Positions 5,134-30,740 of a DNA stretch of 40,488 bases are shown in pieces. Each line of letters starts with the position of its first letter. The stretch's first letter is position 1. Both the position numbers and the translations under genes were made by a program. Origin of the DNA: Lachnospiraceae bacterium (lineage in GTDB: Bacteria; Bacillota; Clostridia; Lachnospirales; Lachnospiraceae); contig JAKSPD010000015.1 of assembly GCA_024405115.1 (NCBI GenBank), forward strand, positions 1 through 40,488, read 5' to 3'. Under the pieces are notes generated by a model that searched no databases, was not told the origin of the DNA, and saw nothing but the letters and a program-made list of their open reading frames with translations.

Positions 5134-5511
5134 TTATTCCGGTCTTTTTTCAAGGTAATAATCCGTATAGTCCCACTTGGAATGGTCATCATTTGAGAAA
5201 CTGTAACCGTCCCTGGCAAAAGAGCTCCCACTGCCGTCAGCAAGCAGCATTACCTCGTTATACTGCCTGTTACCCCCGCCGTTATACGGATAATAATCCG
5301 TCATGATCAGGGCACCGGCAAAATGTCCGTCTTTTACCAGGATGCGTTCCGGTATGATTTCCTCATATGTCGTAACACTCTCCTCCCCTTCCTGACAGCC
5401 GCCGTAATCATCGCCATACCTACGCTCACAGCGAAGAACAAAGTCATTTCTTTCAGTTAATATCTGACTGTATGCTTTGTCAGAATAATCCTTTAGAGAA
5501 ATACTTTCCAT
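5134..5511 (-). CDS. Hypothetical 125-residue protein
   Basis: An acidic soluble protein rich in Tyr, Asp and Gly (for example TDYYPYNGGGNRQYNEV). I do not recognise the family. A perfect AGGAGG is present, but only one base separates it from ATG 5511, which is too close for normal initiation, and the frame is closed by a TGA just upstream, so no better start exists. It may be an inefficiently translated gene or a truncated relic. It shares orientation with the genes to either side. Confidence 0.45.
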   Translation of the reverse strand: MESISLKDYSDKAYSQILTERNDFVLRCERRYGDDYGGCQEGEESVTTYEEIIPERILVKDGHFAGALIMTDYYPYNGGGNRQYNEVMLLADGSGSSFARDGYSFSNDDHSKWDYTDYYLEKRPE

Positions 5512-25045: not shown

Positions 25046-26245
25046 TTATTCAGTCATAACACGCTTGAAATCCTTCATTGCATCTCGGAAGCCAAGGTGC
25101 GTATAGGTGTCAAGCGTGACACTGATTTCTGAATGTCCCATGATGTACTGAAGGTTCTTCGCATTCAGTCCTCTACGGGCCATCTTCGTCGAGAAGGTGT
25201 GTCTGCAGACATGCGGCGTAACGATGGGCATAGGTTCTTTATAATGGGCGTTATACTTGGCACGGATATGCTGGAAATAATGCTCCCAGTGCATCGCAAC
25301 CATCGGCATGCCATTCTTATCCAGGAACAAGAATCCCGACTTACCGTCGATCTCAGGCTCAATAAAAGGCGTTGGCCTGTTATCGATGATATTTCGGAAA
25401 GCCTGCATGACCTCCTCCGACATCGGCACATCCCGAAGGCCTGCATCAGTCTTTGTCGGTTCGTAACTCTTCCCCATGTTGGAATAACGGACCAGCTGGC
25501 CCCGGACATGGATGCACTCCTGCTCAAAGTCCACGTCCTCCGGTGTCAGACCGCAGAACTCAGAGATACGAAGTCCCGTGTTCAGCAGGATGTAGATTGC
25601 ATCGTAATAAGCGCAGAAATGCTGATCTTCCCGGATATAACGCAACAGCTCTGCCTCCCACTCAGGTGACAGTGCATCACGCTTTTTGCTGTCATTTTCG
25701 ATGACAGAGCCCAGTTCGAAATCAAAGGGGTTTCGATTGATCAACTCATCCTCGACAGCCAACTGAAAAGCAGGTCTGATCACGCCACGAATGGTCTGTA
25801 TGGAGCTGTATCCCTTGCCGTTTCGCTGCAGCTTAACCAGCCATAGCTTGGCATCGGACAGCTTCACACGGTCGATTCTGACCGCTGAAAATGGATCCTG
25901 CTTCAGGAAGTTCACCACTGTCTTATAGCCGGTTCTGGTGCTTTCTCTGACGCCTATCTTAGTCTCGATATACCTCTCCACCAGTTCCAGCACCGTCATA
26001 TCTCCGCCAAAGTTTGCAACTCCGTTGAACTGATTACGAAGGATCTGATCCTCCTGTTCACGAAGAGAAGGGGCCATTCTGGCACCATCAGGAAGCTTAT
26101 CCTTAGGCTCCAATCTGCTGCTGTAAAGGCATTTTTCCTTTCCGTCAATATCCTTGTACTTAAAGACATAACGTCCGTCTTTTCTCTGGAACTCTCCATT
26201 TCTTAATACGCGGCCCTTATTGTCGCGTCTTTTTGTTGTACTCAT
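25046..26245 (-). CDS. int: Tn916-type tyrosine integrase
   Basis: 399 residues. The N-terminal RRDNKGRVLRNGEFQRKDGRY is the arm-binding domain of Tn916 Int relatives. A SAM-like core-binding domain (about 82-175) and the catalytic domain follow, with Arg226, Lys265, His345, Arg348, His371 and nucleophile Tyr381 all present. It would integrate and excise the element. AAAGGAG precedes the ATG. Its leader has an extended -10 (26289-26297) and a small hairpin covering the ribosome binding site (TCTCC 26251-26255 with GGAGA 26265-26269). xis, dnaC-like and rep genes lie upstream in the same orientation. Confidence 0.93.
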   Translation of the reverse strand: MSTTKRRDNKGRVLRNGEFQRKDGRYVFKYKDIDGKEKCLYSSRLEPKDKLPDGARMAPSLREQEDQILRNQFNGVANFGGDMTVLELVERYIETKIGVRESTRTGYKTVVNFLKQDPFSAVRIDRVKLSDAKLWLVKLQRNGKGYSSIQTIRGVIRPAFQLAVEDELINRNPFDFELGSVIENDSKKRDALSPEWEAELLRYIREDQHFCAYYDAIYILLNTGLRISEFCGLTPEDVDFEQECIHVRGQLVRYSNMGKSYEPTKTDAGLRDVPMSEEVMQAFRNIIDNRPTPFIEPEIDGKSGFLFLDKNGMPMVAMHWEHYFQHIRAKYNAHYKEPMPIVTPHVCRHTFSTKMARRGLNAKNLQYIMGHSEISVTLDTYTHLGFRDAMKDFKRVMTE

Positions 26246-26250
26246 ATGTG

Positions 26251-26297
26251 TCTCCTTTCAAAACGGAGAGTCCGGCACATACGCGCTTATTATAGCA
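26251..26297 (-). promoter_or_regulatory. int promoter and ribosome-binding-site hairpin
   Basis: Minus-strand TATGCTATAAT (core 26289-26294) is an extended -10. Downstream, TCTCC (complement of 26265-26269) pairs with the GGAGA that contains the int ribosome binding site, with a 9-base loop. Five base pairs only, so masking would be weak unless helped by a factor. Confidence 0.5.
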
Positions 26298-26365
26298 TAT
26301 CGCCGCACTCTCCTCCATATAATCCTTTATAATTCAGTATTTATCGGCTCCTCAGGTGTAAAAGC

Positions 26366-26388
26366 AGGTGTAAAACAGTGTTCATATG
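26366..26388 (+). repeat. 23-bp direct repeat, right copy
   Basis: Matches 24951-24973 exactly. A further GGTGTAAAA copy is at 26355-26363, so this side also carries two tandem motifs. It lies 120 bases upstream of int. Confidence 0.85.
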
Positions 26389-26417
26389 CCATCCCGGTAT
26401 TTACCATTTTGCCTTGT

Positions 26418-26638
26418 TGCTGCCATTCAAAGTTACCACTTTGGTAACTTTGAATGGCAGCATGTGTCTCGTTACGTTTTTCCAAGTTCCCATTTTGGGA
26501 ACTTGCAGGAAACATAACGTTACGGTTATTTCAAATCCTCATTTTGTGGATTTGCAAGAGCTGTCTCATGACCTCAATTTGTGGTCTTGAACGATCTGTC
26601 CCATTACATTTACCGCAAGGTATCATTTTGACACCTTG
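26418..26638. repeat. Array of five palindromes with variable arms and a constant ATTTT-type loop
   Basis: Centres at about 26440, 26494, 26543, 26578 and 26627. Arms: 21-bp perfect stem (26418-26438 with 26442-26462); CAAGTTCCC (26483-26491) with its complement; CAAATCC (26532-26538); GACC (26570-26573); CAAGGT (26616-26621). Each outer edge is CAA/TTG-like and each loop is ATTTT, AATTT or ACTTT. Spacers often contain TGTCYCRTTAC. No open reading frame of note and no T-run. See the findings. Confidence 0.85.
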
Positions 26639-26662
26639 AGATAAGCGTAACACCTAGCCTGA

Positions 26663-27004
26663 TCATTCCGAAACTTCAGCAACCGCTTTCACTCTGTTCC
26701 GATAAGCTTTCTGCCTGCAGGCATTGCAGCAATATCTGGAATCCTTACGTTTTGCATCGTAGATGCCGCCGCAGTACTCGCAGGTCAGGTTACTCCTGGC
26801 CCGGATTCTTTTCTCCTTCTGTCGACGGTTATTCGCGATATTTCCGCACCTGTAAGGACGGCAATACATTTTCTTTTCACTCTGCGTATAGAAGACCCGA
26901 CCGCATCCACCACAGATGATCTTCCTGGTCGATCCACGGTCTCTCTCATACCAGGACTTCAGCAGATCCTGATTTTCCAGTTCCCATTTATCTCTATCAA
27001 ACAT
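26663..27004 (-). CDS. Two-zinc-ribbon protein of the int/xis module
   Basis: 113 residues with two Cys-rich units: CGGC, then CRPYRC (residues about 33-53), and CEYC, then CCNAC near 76-96. The second unit ends CRQKAYRNR, a motif shared by short zinc-finger proteins found beside integrases. It is basic and probably binds DNA. GGAGGGAG precedes the ATG. It sits between xis and int and directly borders the palindrome array, so binding that array is an attractive but untested idea. Confidence 0.75.
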   Translation of the reverse strand: MFDRDKWELENQDLLKSWYERDRGSTRKIICGGCGRVFYTQSEKKMYCRPYRCGNIANNRRQKEKRIRARSNLTCEYCGGIYDAKRKDSRYCCNACRQKAYRNRVKAVAEVSE

Positions 27005-27014
27005 GACTCCCTCC

Positions 27015-27230
27015 TCAGATCGCTACCTGGCGATCAATAAACTGCTCAAAGCGCTTACGCTTAATCATAGTACGCTTGCCGCTTCTTAAGATGAAATCCG
27101 CATCAGGATAATCATCCAGGATCTCTTTCATCTTCTTTTCGCCGATGTGGAAGTACAGAATGGCTTCATTAACCGTCAGCGTATATTTCTCCCAGAAGGG
27201 CATGTCCAGTCCCTTAGTTTCGTACATCAT
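27015..27230 (-). CDS. xis: Tn916 Xis-like excisionase
   Basis: 71 residues. MPFWEKYTLTVNEAILYFHIGEKKMKEIL followed by RSGKRTMIKRKRFEQFID (two adjacent pieces) matches the Tn916 Xis pattern, a winged-helix DNA-bending protein required for excision. ATG 27230 and 27227 are both possible after AAGGAGG. The start overlaps the stop of the DnaC-like gene by 4 bases, so it is translationally coupled to it. Confidence 0.88.
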   Translation of the reverse strand: MMYETKGLDMPFWEKYTLTVNEAILYFHIGEKKMKEILDDYPDADFILRSGKRTMIKRKRFEQFIDRQVAI

Positions 27231-28084
27231 TCCTTTCCCTCCTTCTTAATTCCCAGGATTTCTCCCAGGCGATCCATCTTACGTTTCCGAATGCCCGGCC
27301 GCAGACTGCCTCCTTCAAAATGCACCGGCGAACACATCTCAAGGATCCTGTCATAGACACGCTTATGATCGGTATCCTTAGGCGAAGTCAGAGTATTCAA
27401 TGACAGGTTCGTTGTCACAATCAAAGGCTTTCTGCTCTGATACCTGGCGTCGATTACCTGAAAAGCAATCTCGTTTCCGAACTCTGTGTCTCGCTCCATA
27501 CCATAGTCATCGATGATGAGCAACGAACACTGCCTGACCGCCCGGAGCAGCTCCTCTCTGGACTCAAAGGTCGCATTCATAACATCACTGAGATTCAGCA
27601 TTCGCACTGATACTTCCTGTTGCAACAATGCATTGGCAATGCTGGCAGCCATATAGCTCTTTCCGGTTCCGACATCCCCCCATAGAAGCATTCCCAGGTT
27701 TTCTGCCTTTGCTTTCTCCCAGCCCTCTGCATATTTCCGACAGATCACAACCGCCGGGTTATCTAATTTTGACTCTTCAAAGGTCAGCTCTCTCATGGCA
27801 GGATTACCTGCAAAGCAAATACTACTGAGTCGATCAACCGTACTCATATGCCGCTCATGCTCATGTTCCGCCGCCTTCGCTTCATCCTCGGCACGCTGGC
27901 AGGCGCATCTTCTTGGATGGGTACTATGTCCCATAAATGTGACCCTGTTCCCGGCACGATCCCTGAAGAAATCCTGCAATGGCTCTCCACATACAGAGCA
28001 AACAGCAAACTGCTGGTTATCGTTCTCCAGATTTTCACCTGAAGCATCACTCGTCATCATAATGATTTTTCTTATCTCTTCCAT
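27227..28084 (-). CDS. DnaC-like ATPase (helicase loader)
   Basis: 285 residues from ATG 28084, preceded by AAGGAGG at 10 bases. An N-terminal four-Cys zinc site (Cys29, Cys32, Cys60, Cys62) precedes an AAA+ domain with Walker A GDVGTGKS at 136-143 and Walker B LLIIDDYG, followed by the sensor NLSLN. It is of the DnaC/IstB type and would load the host helicase at the element origin. The upstream ORF stop and this ATG overlap (28084). Confidence 0.87.
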   Translation of the reverse strand: MEEIRKIIMMTSDASGENLENDNQQFAVCSVCGEPLQDFFRDRAGNRVTFMGHSTHPRRCACQRAEDEAKAAEHEHERHMSTVDRLSSICFAGNPAMRELTFEESKLDNPAVVICRKYAEGWEKAKAENLGMLLWGDVGTGKSYMAASIANALLQQEVSVRMLNLSDVMNATFESREELLRAVRQCSLLIIDDYGMERDTEFGNEIAFQVIDARYQSRKPLIVTTNLSLNTLTSPKDTDHKRVYDRILEMCSPVHFEGGSLRPGIRKRKMDRLGEILGIKKEGKE

Positions 28085-28812
28085 CAGAAGCTGTCCTCCT
28101 TTTTGCATTCATAGTCTTCAAAGGTACGGTCTTCACCGACCTTTCTATCATTGGCGGCCCATCGCCTGATGGCAGCTGCATAATTTACATAGGTCCGTCC
28201 GGTTGATGCCACGTACTCACTGAGTTCTTCCACATATCGCTCGGCATTCCCGGCGAACTCCGTCTCCAATTCTGCCAATTCCTTGTCTGCCAGAAAGATA
28301 TTTCCGTAACGGCCTCTGGGCTTGCGATCCATCACTCCGTAACTATCAGTTGGGTTACTATGATTCATTACTTTATTAGGAGCTGGGTATCTGCCTGTAC
28401 TGAGGTCAGGATCCTGGCTATCGGAAGTATTGCTTTTTGAACCTACCGCAGCTGACTTTCTCACTCGGTCAGAAAACTGACTTTCCAAAGCATACTTTAC
28501 GTAAAGATAGTTTGGCTTAGAGAAGCCGCCGGACCTTTTTACAAGCAGTCCTGCCTCACACAGTTCTTTCATTCCTGCTTTAACGGTTGACTCACTTTTG
28601 CCGATTTTCTTCGCCAGTTCCACAATTGGAAAGACAACATATACTCGTCCATACTCGTCGGTCCATTCATTTTTCATAGACAGCCGGGACCGATCATACA
28701 GAACGAGATACACTACCTTAGCCGTCTGACTTATGGGAAGTCTCAGTAAGAATTCCGGGAACTGCAGGTAAGCCGGAAGCTGCGTATCCTGATATAAGAA
28801 TGTGCTTTTCAT
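28084..28812 (-). CDS. Replication initiator A-type protein
   Basis: 242 residues. The N-terminal half has LPISQTAKVVYLVLYDRSRLS then VVFPIVELAKKIGKSESTVKAGMKELCEAGLL, the winged helix of RepA-N-type initiators. A low-complexity linker and a helical C-terminus follow. It should initiate replication of the excised circle. The start is uncertain: AGGAGG lies 13 bases before ATG 28812, and a GTG at 28821 and an ATG at 28839 are alternatives. Its stop overlaps the DnaC-like start. Confidence 0.8.
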   Translation of the reverse strand: MKSTFLYQDTQLPAYLQFPEFLLRLPISQTAKVVYLVLYDRSRLSMKNEWTDEYGRVYVVFPIVELAKKIGKSESTVKAGMKELCEAGLLVKRSGGFSKPNYLYVKYALESQFSDRVRKSAAVGSKSNTSDSQDPDLSTGRYPAPNKVMNHSNPTDSYGVMDRKPRGRYGNIFLADKELAELETEFAGNAERYVEELSEYVASTGRTYVNYAAAIRRWAANDRKVGEDRTFEDYECKKEDSF

Positions 28813-28995
28813 CGTCTGCACTGTTCCTCCTGTATTCATTTTTGACTGATCAGCGTTTCGTAACAGCAAGGAAAATGTGCTGACGGTACCTTCAGACTTC
28901 CGTTGCCTTACAGTTAGAATTCTACCTGTTTGCATTCATATTTCCATGGACAGATAGACCCCCCTGGGACATACTCTTTGTCCATAAAGACAGAA

Positions 28996-29967: not shown

Positions 29968-30717
29968 TTATTCCTTAAGAACCGGTGATGACGTCATACT
30001 TCTTTGAAAATATTCACCATTCATTTCGGGATTCACATAGGAAACTGCAAAACATTTTTGTTCATATTTGTTGCCGAACAAGTCTTGAAATGTGATTCGC
30101 ACATCCATTTTTTTGCCAAACATATCGCCTCGAATGATAAAAAAGAACTCAAACTTCTCATCTTTTCCAAGATTAAACTTCCATTGGCATACTTCATTTA
30201 GAAACACGTTTACTATTAGCGCACTGTTCAAGCCAAGATTTTTGATTCCCATTTTTTTAATCTGAACGCCTACACTTTTATTATTCAGAAACTCAGAATT
30301 AATCCTGGGGTATATTGCAGTATTATGAATTGTCTCAGAACTACTCGTCTCCAAAAATGGAAATACTTTATCCCCGCAATAATCAACAAGATTCTCTGTG
30401 TATTCCATTACCCGCCAATGGTCAGTTGATGATTTAACAACATATGGAGATACATTGTAATCAATCTCGGCATCTTCGATTTGGACATCAAGAAACGGCA
30501 ATACACTTTGTCGCTGTTGGAGTATATTGTGCCTCTCGGATTGTTTGAAAGTGAAATAAAATGCAACGAAGGTTGCAATTCCAGTTATTATTGCCCCTAA
30601 ATATCCACCAAAAAAAGATACCCATGATTCATTTGTAATATTCGAAGGAATATTATTACCAATAATCAGATGATCCATTGCTATGGGAATCATAATCACA
30701 GCGATTATGATTCCCAT
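29968..30717 (-). CDS. Membrane protein of unknown function
   Basis: 249 residues as read from ATG 30717. Two hydrophobic segments (about 1-15 and 33-56, with WVSFFGGYLGAIITGIATFVAFYF) are followed by a soluble domain of beta-rich character. Base composition is AT-richer than the neighbours, suggesting a separate origin. The N-terminal segment is truncated: the in-frame codons upstream (DWFWVIA) extend the first membrane helix but have no start codon, and a plausible SD-preceded ATG lies out of frame. The start lies inside a perfect 18-bp inverted repeat. Function unrecognised; possibly an accessory defence protein. Confidence 0.6.
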   Translation of the reverse strand: MGIIIAVIMIPIAMDHLIIGNNIPSNITNESWVSFFGGYLGAIITGIATFVAFYFTFKQSERHNILQQRQSVLPFLDVQIEDAEIDYNVSPYVVKSSTDHWRVMEYTENLVDYCGDKVFPFLETSSSETIHNTAIYPRINSEFLNNKSVGVQIKKMGIKNLGLNSALIVNVFLNEVCQWKFNLGKDEKFEFFFIIRGDMFGKKMDVRITFQDLFGNKYEQKCFAVSYVNPEMNGEYFQRSMTSSPVLKE

Positions 30718-30720
30718 AGC
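30680..30720. repeat. 18-bp perfect inverted repeat over the membrane-protein start
   Basis: GCTATGGGAATCATAATC (30680-30697) and its complement (30703-30720) are separated by 5 bases. On the minus strand the first arm carries the ATG at 30717. It extends about 3 more pairs with a G-U. Confidence 0.85.
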
Positions 30721-30740
30721 GATAACCCAAAACCAATCTA

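Follow-up and report, generated by a model that had tools for sequence, protein, structure and literature searches.

The window analyzed here, a contig (C7) of 40,488 bases from a source genome (G000) of 1.97 Mb in 65 contigs that is 78.5% complete, contains an array of five palindromic units next to the gene for a small tandem zinc-finger protein, P0001. The best explanation that we can offer, and which we hold tentatively, is that these units are dyad-symmetric DNA sites of ~51 bp that belong to the adjacent zinc-finger protein, such that gene and array would together form one travelling module. No description of such a gene-plus-array module was found in the literature searched, which included few papers from subscription journals, nor was there an Rfam match.

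An array of five palindromes in the window

All five palindromes that had been predicted here from the bare sequence were present, and they share the core CA-NNN-TG. They are annotated on the minus strand, which is the strand of the neighboring zinc-finger and integrase genes. Unit 1 (26418-26462) has perfect 21-bp arms around a 3-nt loop and the core CACTTTG (CAAAGTG on the minus strand), and unit 4 (26567-26589) has the core CAATTTG (CAAATTG on the minus strand) and one arm mismatch; neither of the two has outer boxes at the usual distance. The inner palindromes of unit 2 (CAAGTTCCCAAAATGGGAACTTG; 26483-26505) and unit 5 (CAAGGTGTCAAAATGATACCTTG; 26616-26638) are flanked on both sides by GTTAC/GTAAY boxes, giving full units at 26469-26520 and 26601-26653, respectively, and unit 3 (inner palindrome CAAATCCACAAAATGAGGATTTG, then CCGTAACG on the minus strand; 26532-26554) has the right box without the left one. 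Eight of the 171 CANNNTG heptamers in the window are located inside 26400-26640, and five of these eight have at least seven of ten flanking positions in Watson-Crick pairs (10, 9, 8, 7, and 8), as compared with three of the 163 outside that reach seven. The more restrictive minus-strand pattern CAAR-NNNN-CAAAWTG-NNNN-YTTG occurs three times genome-wide, each time in this array.

Spacers of the form TGTCYCRTTAC, also part of the original prediction, are present in exact or near-exact form at 26464, 26562, and 26597, and their GTTAC portion turned out to be a piece of a larger unit. The further claim, that the arms differ between units yet stay complementary, held with respect to complementarity; the arms are not, as it had implied, unrelated to each other, in that they share a weak AAGT...ACTT consensus. 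An identity as a CRISPR, iteron, or terminator array had been discounted, correctly so: the unit arms differ, unlike the identical repeats with unique spacers of a CRISPR, and the interval 26250-26700 has no terminator-like sites (mean of 0.4 in shuffles).

Searches with the model R1, which was built from zinc-finger-linked units and favors matches to them, returned units 2 and 5 at E 7.5e-9 and 1.3e-9, both being themselves part of R1, and unit 3 weakly (E 0.6). All five R1 matches in the source genome (E ≤ 1) were in the array, with no further array copies among the best 150 of 661 candidate places, which were those scored. Additionally, 19 bases from the interior of the 21-bp arm in unit 1 had no second genomic occurrence within 3 mismatches, and thus no source of a captured spacer was found.

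Two other features of the window were noted outside the array. Between int and the array, CAGGTGTAAAA occurs twice in direct orientation, 12 bp apart (26353-26375), as possible integrase arm sites, and a palindrome with arms of 18-20 bp (30678-30723) covers the start of an ORF at 29968-30717.

Architecture of the full unit

Comparison of the related arrays, which comprise from 2 to about 17 units, delineated a full unit of 51-53 nt that consists of GTTACG, a weakly paired stretch, a variable arm, CA-WWW-TG, the matching arm, and CGTAAC. At its center WWW is closed by CA and TG, and the inner stem runs over ~10-13 positions, with mismatches tolerated beside the core; outside it is a poorly paired stretch and then the outer stem, GTTACG/CGTAAC, ~19-25 nt from the center. 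Across 40 units in ten arrays, 24 of the units being from two related records (MT836903 and L201), a left box GTTA(C/T) was found at -24/-25 from the center in 13 and a right GTAAC-like box between +19 and +22 in 21, such that a third to half of the units have a box on a given side. The conserved positions, namely the CA-WWW-TG center, AAGT...ACTT, and the boxes at about two helical turns from the center, are dyad-symmetric.

The zinc-finger gene as partner of the array

The array is located in a row of genes on the minus strand that encode a tyrosine integrase with a Tn916-type N-terminal domain (Integrase_DNA; 25046-26245), P0001 (113 aa; 26663-27004), an excisionase of the Tn916-Xis family (27015-27230; PF09035, E 2.7e-20), an IstB/DnaC-like ATPase (27227-28108), and a RepA_N replication initiator-like protein (28084-28935). 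The zinc-finger protein was searched for in 145 relatives, 397 family genomes, 392 order genomes, phage records, and viral contigs, sets which partly overlap. This exposed nine homologues at E < 1e-16, the window included (G000, G037, G043, G361, G446, G644, MT836903, L200, and L201), and in all nine a palindrome array adjoins the zinc-finger gene, whichever recombinase is nearby. The arrays do recur in related elements, as had been anticipated, and it is the neighboring zinc-finger gene that is their consistent partner.

The rest of the neighborhood varies. Most arrays other than that of the window are beside serine recombinases. Based on Pfam, G037 and G043 have an upstream protein with Recombinase and DUF4368 domains, G037 has a NikA/MobC-like gene downstream, G446 has downstream a gene with sub-threshold similarity to sigma-70 region 4 together with an HTH_17 gene, and MT836903 has a complete serine recombinase elsewhere in the record. 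By our own reading of the ORFs, recombinases are also present in G361, G644, and L200, MobC in G361 and G644, a primase-like gene in G043, a ParM-like gene in L200, and, in MT836903 and L201, a MobL-like relaxase, whose ORF in MT836903 is without a Pfam match. As the downstream gene varies among elements, it implies no single function, which weighs against our explanation. The array of another genome, G380, comes after a recombinase-like ORF that has related fingers at its own C-terminus.

The integrase and excisionase, beside which the array had originally been noted, are inconsistent partners. Although the window resembles Tn916-type integration modules in its Integrase_DNA domain and Tn916-Xis excisionase, the two loci with integrase relatives in the genome collection (L008 and L009; 52-53% identity) have neither a zinc-finger gene (tblastn, E ≤ 1) nor core palindromes in the sequence available, L009 being compared over 392 bases upstream of int. 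On these two loci int/xis was rejected as the array partner.

More distant finger sequences are mostly without arrays, a point that we count against the explanation put forward above. Among 19 loci with weaker finger matches, one (L015, in G380) has three core palindromes, two (L026 and L033) have two, seven have one, and nine have none; at one locus without a core palindrome (L018, in G160) the match (residues 12-113, 34% identity) lies inside an ORF of 817 aa. Likewise, the loci with partial finger matches (L202-L210) have no array, and one of them (L204) has a single core palindrome.

P0001 itself is basic, with 28 Lys and Arg residues and no histidine, nor is any histidine conserved in the alignment of its homologues, and it has eight cysteines, arranged four and four, that do not vary across seven homologues. 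The AlphaFold2 model (mean pLDDT 89.7, pTM 0.61) predicts, with good confidence, two repeats of a strand pair followed by a long helix, which we read as treble-clef fingers. Pfam matches were weak: zf-CGNR was below cut-off at 5e-4, and of six members four matched Ecl1 (1e-4) and two NinG (8e-4); no transposase family was among the Pfam matches of P0001 or its homologues. In PHROGs, six of the seven proteins compared matched HNH (3e-10), five matched NinG/Rap (5e-4), and all seven matched three families of unknown function. NCBIfam gave a weak match to the IS1/IS1595 N-terminal zinc domain (E 0.05), PADLOC gave no match, and the best solved structure in a sequence search was at E 0.035. Rap, as its PHROG label has it, acts on DNA junctions. 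The weak profile similarity to NinG/Rap and HNH phage endonucleases lies in the zinc-finger part, and P0001, with 113 aa and no histidine, differs from HNH proteins in that it has no HNH active site. Since it has no histidine, P0001 is neither an HNH nor an HUH nuclease, and it is more likely a binder.

Distribution across genomes

In whole-genome searches with R1 the best 150 of several hundred candidates were scored per genome, and in the large scans the best 17-19; because R1 was built from linked units and the best candidates alone were scored, copies elsewhere could be missed. Within this scope, R1 matches (E ≤ 1) were confined to one array each in G000, G037, G043, G361, G446, G644, and G380 (weak in the last, E 0.02-0.07), and in the L200, L201, and MT836903 records they were within arrays alone. 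The array of G872 was matched too. No dispersed copies were found outside arrays among eight genomes (best 150 candidates in each), and the idea of dispersed repeats was rejected on these grounds. At E ≤ 0.001, R1 matched five of 299 family genomes and two of 331 class genomes, with G000 in both, hence six genomes in total, and the zinc-finger gene is adjacent in five of the six (G872 among them). The sixth, G342 (L237), has a decayed remnant of a MobC-type element, with a MobC-like fragment and one well-paired unit, and neither a recombinase nor a zinc-finger gene was seen in the 3 kb examined; this paired unit without its gene again counts against our explanation.

Scans by pattern identified few further candidates. 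The exact pattern was found in one of 397 family genomes, G380, and the exact core at 36 loci in viral contigs, three of which (L041, L043, and L068) have at least two core palindromes. A loose scan of the viral contigs for GTTACG...CANNNTG...CGTAAC gave at least 120 stretches, and as none of the 120 listed was sufficiently paired, they were taken as chance. Plasmids gave no match, nor did phages at the DNA level, and a protein search of the phages matched one record.

Several other palindromic regions were observed along the way. A phage-like contig (L068:6153-6537) has nine core palindromes that are densely spaced and non-coding, with AT-rich centers and differing arms, and recalls the window array. 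An element group (L022, L023, L025, L026, L030, L031, and L033) has one or two CANNNTG palindromes in a conserved leader (~1030-1160, gene-sense) that precedes a gene for a Cys-rich protein, as does L027 with a mismatch; in L026 the Cys-rich gene is followed by RepA_N and Mob_Pre genes, and the core is inverted between L026 and L033. Finally, L008, which is without the zinc-finger gene, has a long hairpin (GTTACGATACAGGG...CCCTGTATCGTAAC; 5208-5257) upstream of xis/int with the same terminal box letters.

Arm pairing, unit turnover, and possible template switching

Pairing of arms was analyzed for 43 cores (CAWWWTG, CACTTTG, or CAAAGTG) from ten regions picked for holding arrays, with no further selection by pairing and with units that have other cores outside the count. 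Own arms paired at 0.812 over ten positions, vs. 0.403 after exchange of arms among units (at most 0.495 in 1000 shuffles), and 40 of the 43 cores had at least six pairs. We also aligned a selection of 14 full units, which excluded the box-lacking units, the third G446 unit, and the other L200 units. Paired cells in this alignment amounted to 88.3% vs. 78.1% in shuffles, and the covariation score was 0.347 vs. 0.161 ± 0.022, a value reached by none of 500 shuffles and compared with 0.101 at most in slid controls, these controls being inflated or weakened by the orthology of several units and by a structure drawn from the same sequences. The predicted covariation of the arms thus exceeds shuffled controls. 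The numbers of pairs changed on both sides (9 vs. 7.1 expected in shuffles; 79 of 500) and of further pair types (22 vs. 18.6; 40 of 500) were not exceptional.

The orthologous arrays that could be compared (MT836903 with L201; G037 with G361 and G644) differ by the presence or absence of whole units, in that L201 has one extra unit upstream, MT836903 has extra units downstream, and G361 is without unit 2. Along the AAATCAGG...TTGATTT series of MT836903, neighboring units resemble tandem duplicates with re-matched inner arms. Over 14 orthologous unit pairs and 182 positions, 129 positions were unchanged, 42 had changed on one side, and 11 on both. The one-sided changes gained a pair in 23 cases, lost one in 13, and did neither in six, and the two-sided changes stayed paired in seven cases, lost a pair in one, gained one in one, and were unpaired in both orthologs in two. 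The core was exactly inverted in three of 13 unit pairs compared, from which two further MT836903/L201 pairs were left out because their core is not CANNNTG.

According to PMC8604942, template switching between inverted repeats is recognizable by arm homogenization and spacer inversion, and according to PMC8794818 template switching can produce compensatory changes in a single step. With one-sided changes outnumbering double compensations (42 vs. 7, with 36 of the 42 making or breaking a pair) and core inversions that fit template switching, covariation alone is no proof of selection; the original reading of compensation as evidence for selection of a folded form is weakened accordingly, and template-switch mutation could yield the arm symmetry without selection. 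The one-sided changes, by which pairing is not strictly maintained, and this other possible origin of the symmetry are also counted against our own explanation. The constant spacing between box and core, together with the link to a single gene, nevertheless speaks for function.

From these observations comes the main rival explanation, which we regard as unlikely, albeit the least so of the alternatives: the units would be operator or accessory sites that a dimeric protein, either the zinc-finger protein or the recombinase, uses as duplex, with no fold needed and with symmetry brought about by template-switch (quasipalindrome) copying. In its favor, the conserved positions are themselves dyad-symmetric, with the boxes about two helical turns out, the remnant unit of G342 is well paired without its gene, wobble bias is absent (see below), and the exact core inversions are a template-switch signature of the kind described in PMC8604942 (see also PMC8794818). 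However, paired variable positions that extend over 10-13 per side, with adjacent arms that differ, exceed the need of an operator. Perfect arms of 21 bp, as in unit 1 of the window, are likewise unusual for an operator.

DNA favored over RNA

Several features would suit RNA hairpins, whereby the zinc-finger/int transcript would have a structured leader or 3′ UTR that is bound via the common loop: the array is inside a co-directional gene row, covariation is present, and in four genomes (G037, G361, G644, and G446) the zinc-finger match extends at its 3′ end into the first unit. Moreover, the zinc-finger ORF of G872 (L238) extends past the first unit and into the second, such that units are partly coding, and with units in or beside reading frames their transcription is likely. 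Selection on an RNA strand, however, would tolerate G-U and not A-C mismatches, and no such bias was detected. On the gene-sense strand of the 40 units there were 16 G-T, 20 A-C, and 25 other mismatches (for equal frequencies p is 0.62, and for a 3:1 excess of G-T it is 9e-5, in a test that is generous since related units were counted apart). The G-U pair of unit 5 that forms on the minus strand alone, from which RNA of that strand had been suspected, therefore does not generalize. Furthermore, the AAA and TTT orientations of the core are mixed on one strand, with 14 occurrences each of CAAAATG and CATTTTG, and no Rfam family exceeded its gathering threshold, either in the window or at six related loci (L005, L013, L026, L039, L200, and L201), by which a known RNA family was rejected. 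Strand-symmetric DNA is thus favored over RNA as the form under selection, and RNA hairpins appear improbable.

Comparison with known palindromic systems

One gene with short palindromes at its side, to which it is apparently linked, is reminiscent of REPs and RAYTs, and PMC2817692 relates RAYTs to the IS200/IS605 transposases and puts REPs at usually >100 copies per genome. Mobile palindromes akin to REPs or MITEs, inserted time and again next to the zinc-finger gene, would account for whole units present in one orthologous array and absent from another, as from insertion or excision, and for the resemblance to the RAYT/REP pairs of PMC2817692. We nonetheless consider this very improbable, given that P0001 has no histidine with which to form the site of an HUH (Y1) transposase, that each genome was found to have its units in a single array, of 2 to about 17, rather than as many dispersed copies (eight genomes, best 150 candidates each), and that some neighboring units in MT836903 resemble tandem duplicates.

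With integron attC sites the likeness is one of architecture alone, as seen across the 14 full units. The attC box consensus is GTTRRRY, which the unit box GTTACG does not fit. That the units are attC-like, structure-specific recombination sites and the zinc-finger gene a captured cassette is scarcely credible: they share the inverted edge boxes, weakly paired or unpaired stretch, and inner stem free in sequence, with structure outlasting sequence drift, that PMC2727003 describes for attC, and the site overlaps the 3′ end of the gene, but the boxes are symmetric about the center without sign of the extrahelical bases or strand preference of attC (G-T 16, A-C 20), there are no cassettes between adjacent units, and no integron integrase (TIGR02249) exceeded the curated cut-off in any of eight genomes, the weaker tyrosine-recombinase matches being present in all eight and in all 14 control genomes.

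A model for the module and its implications

Returning to the explanation of the units as ~51-bp DNA sites of the adjacent zinc-finger protein, we envisage that the gene and its array travel together among otherwise unrelated integrative and mobilizable elements of (gut) Clostridia. The zinc-finger protein would recognize the units as DNA, through the outer GTTACG/CGTAAC boxes, the CA-WWW-TG center, and the paired arms. The recognized form would probably be an extruded or single-stranded hairpin, arising upon excision, replication, or transfer of the element, and the resulting protein-DNA complex may serve the maintenance or transfer of the element itself. It is also conceivable, if doubtful, that this is a shape-recognition module in which a two-zinc protein of ~110 residues reads short DNA hairpins by their shape together with a small core and a box, leaving the arms free; gene and array would in that case have been acquired together by element after element, and would be unrelated to integron integrases and HUH transposases.

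The zinc-finger protein provides a concrete partner of the array for testing. If it does not read folded DNA, the arrays would offer a natural case of palindromes held symmetric by template switching, and with it a caution against taking covariation as proof of structure. If it does, it would be one more on the short list of proteins that recognize DNA hairpins by shape.
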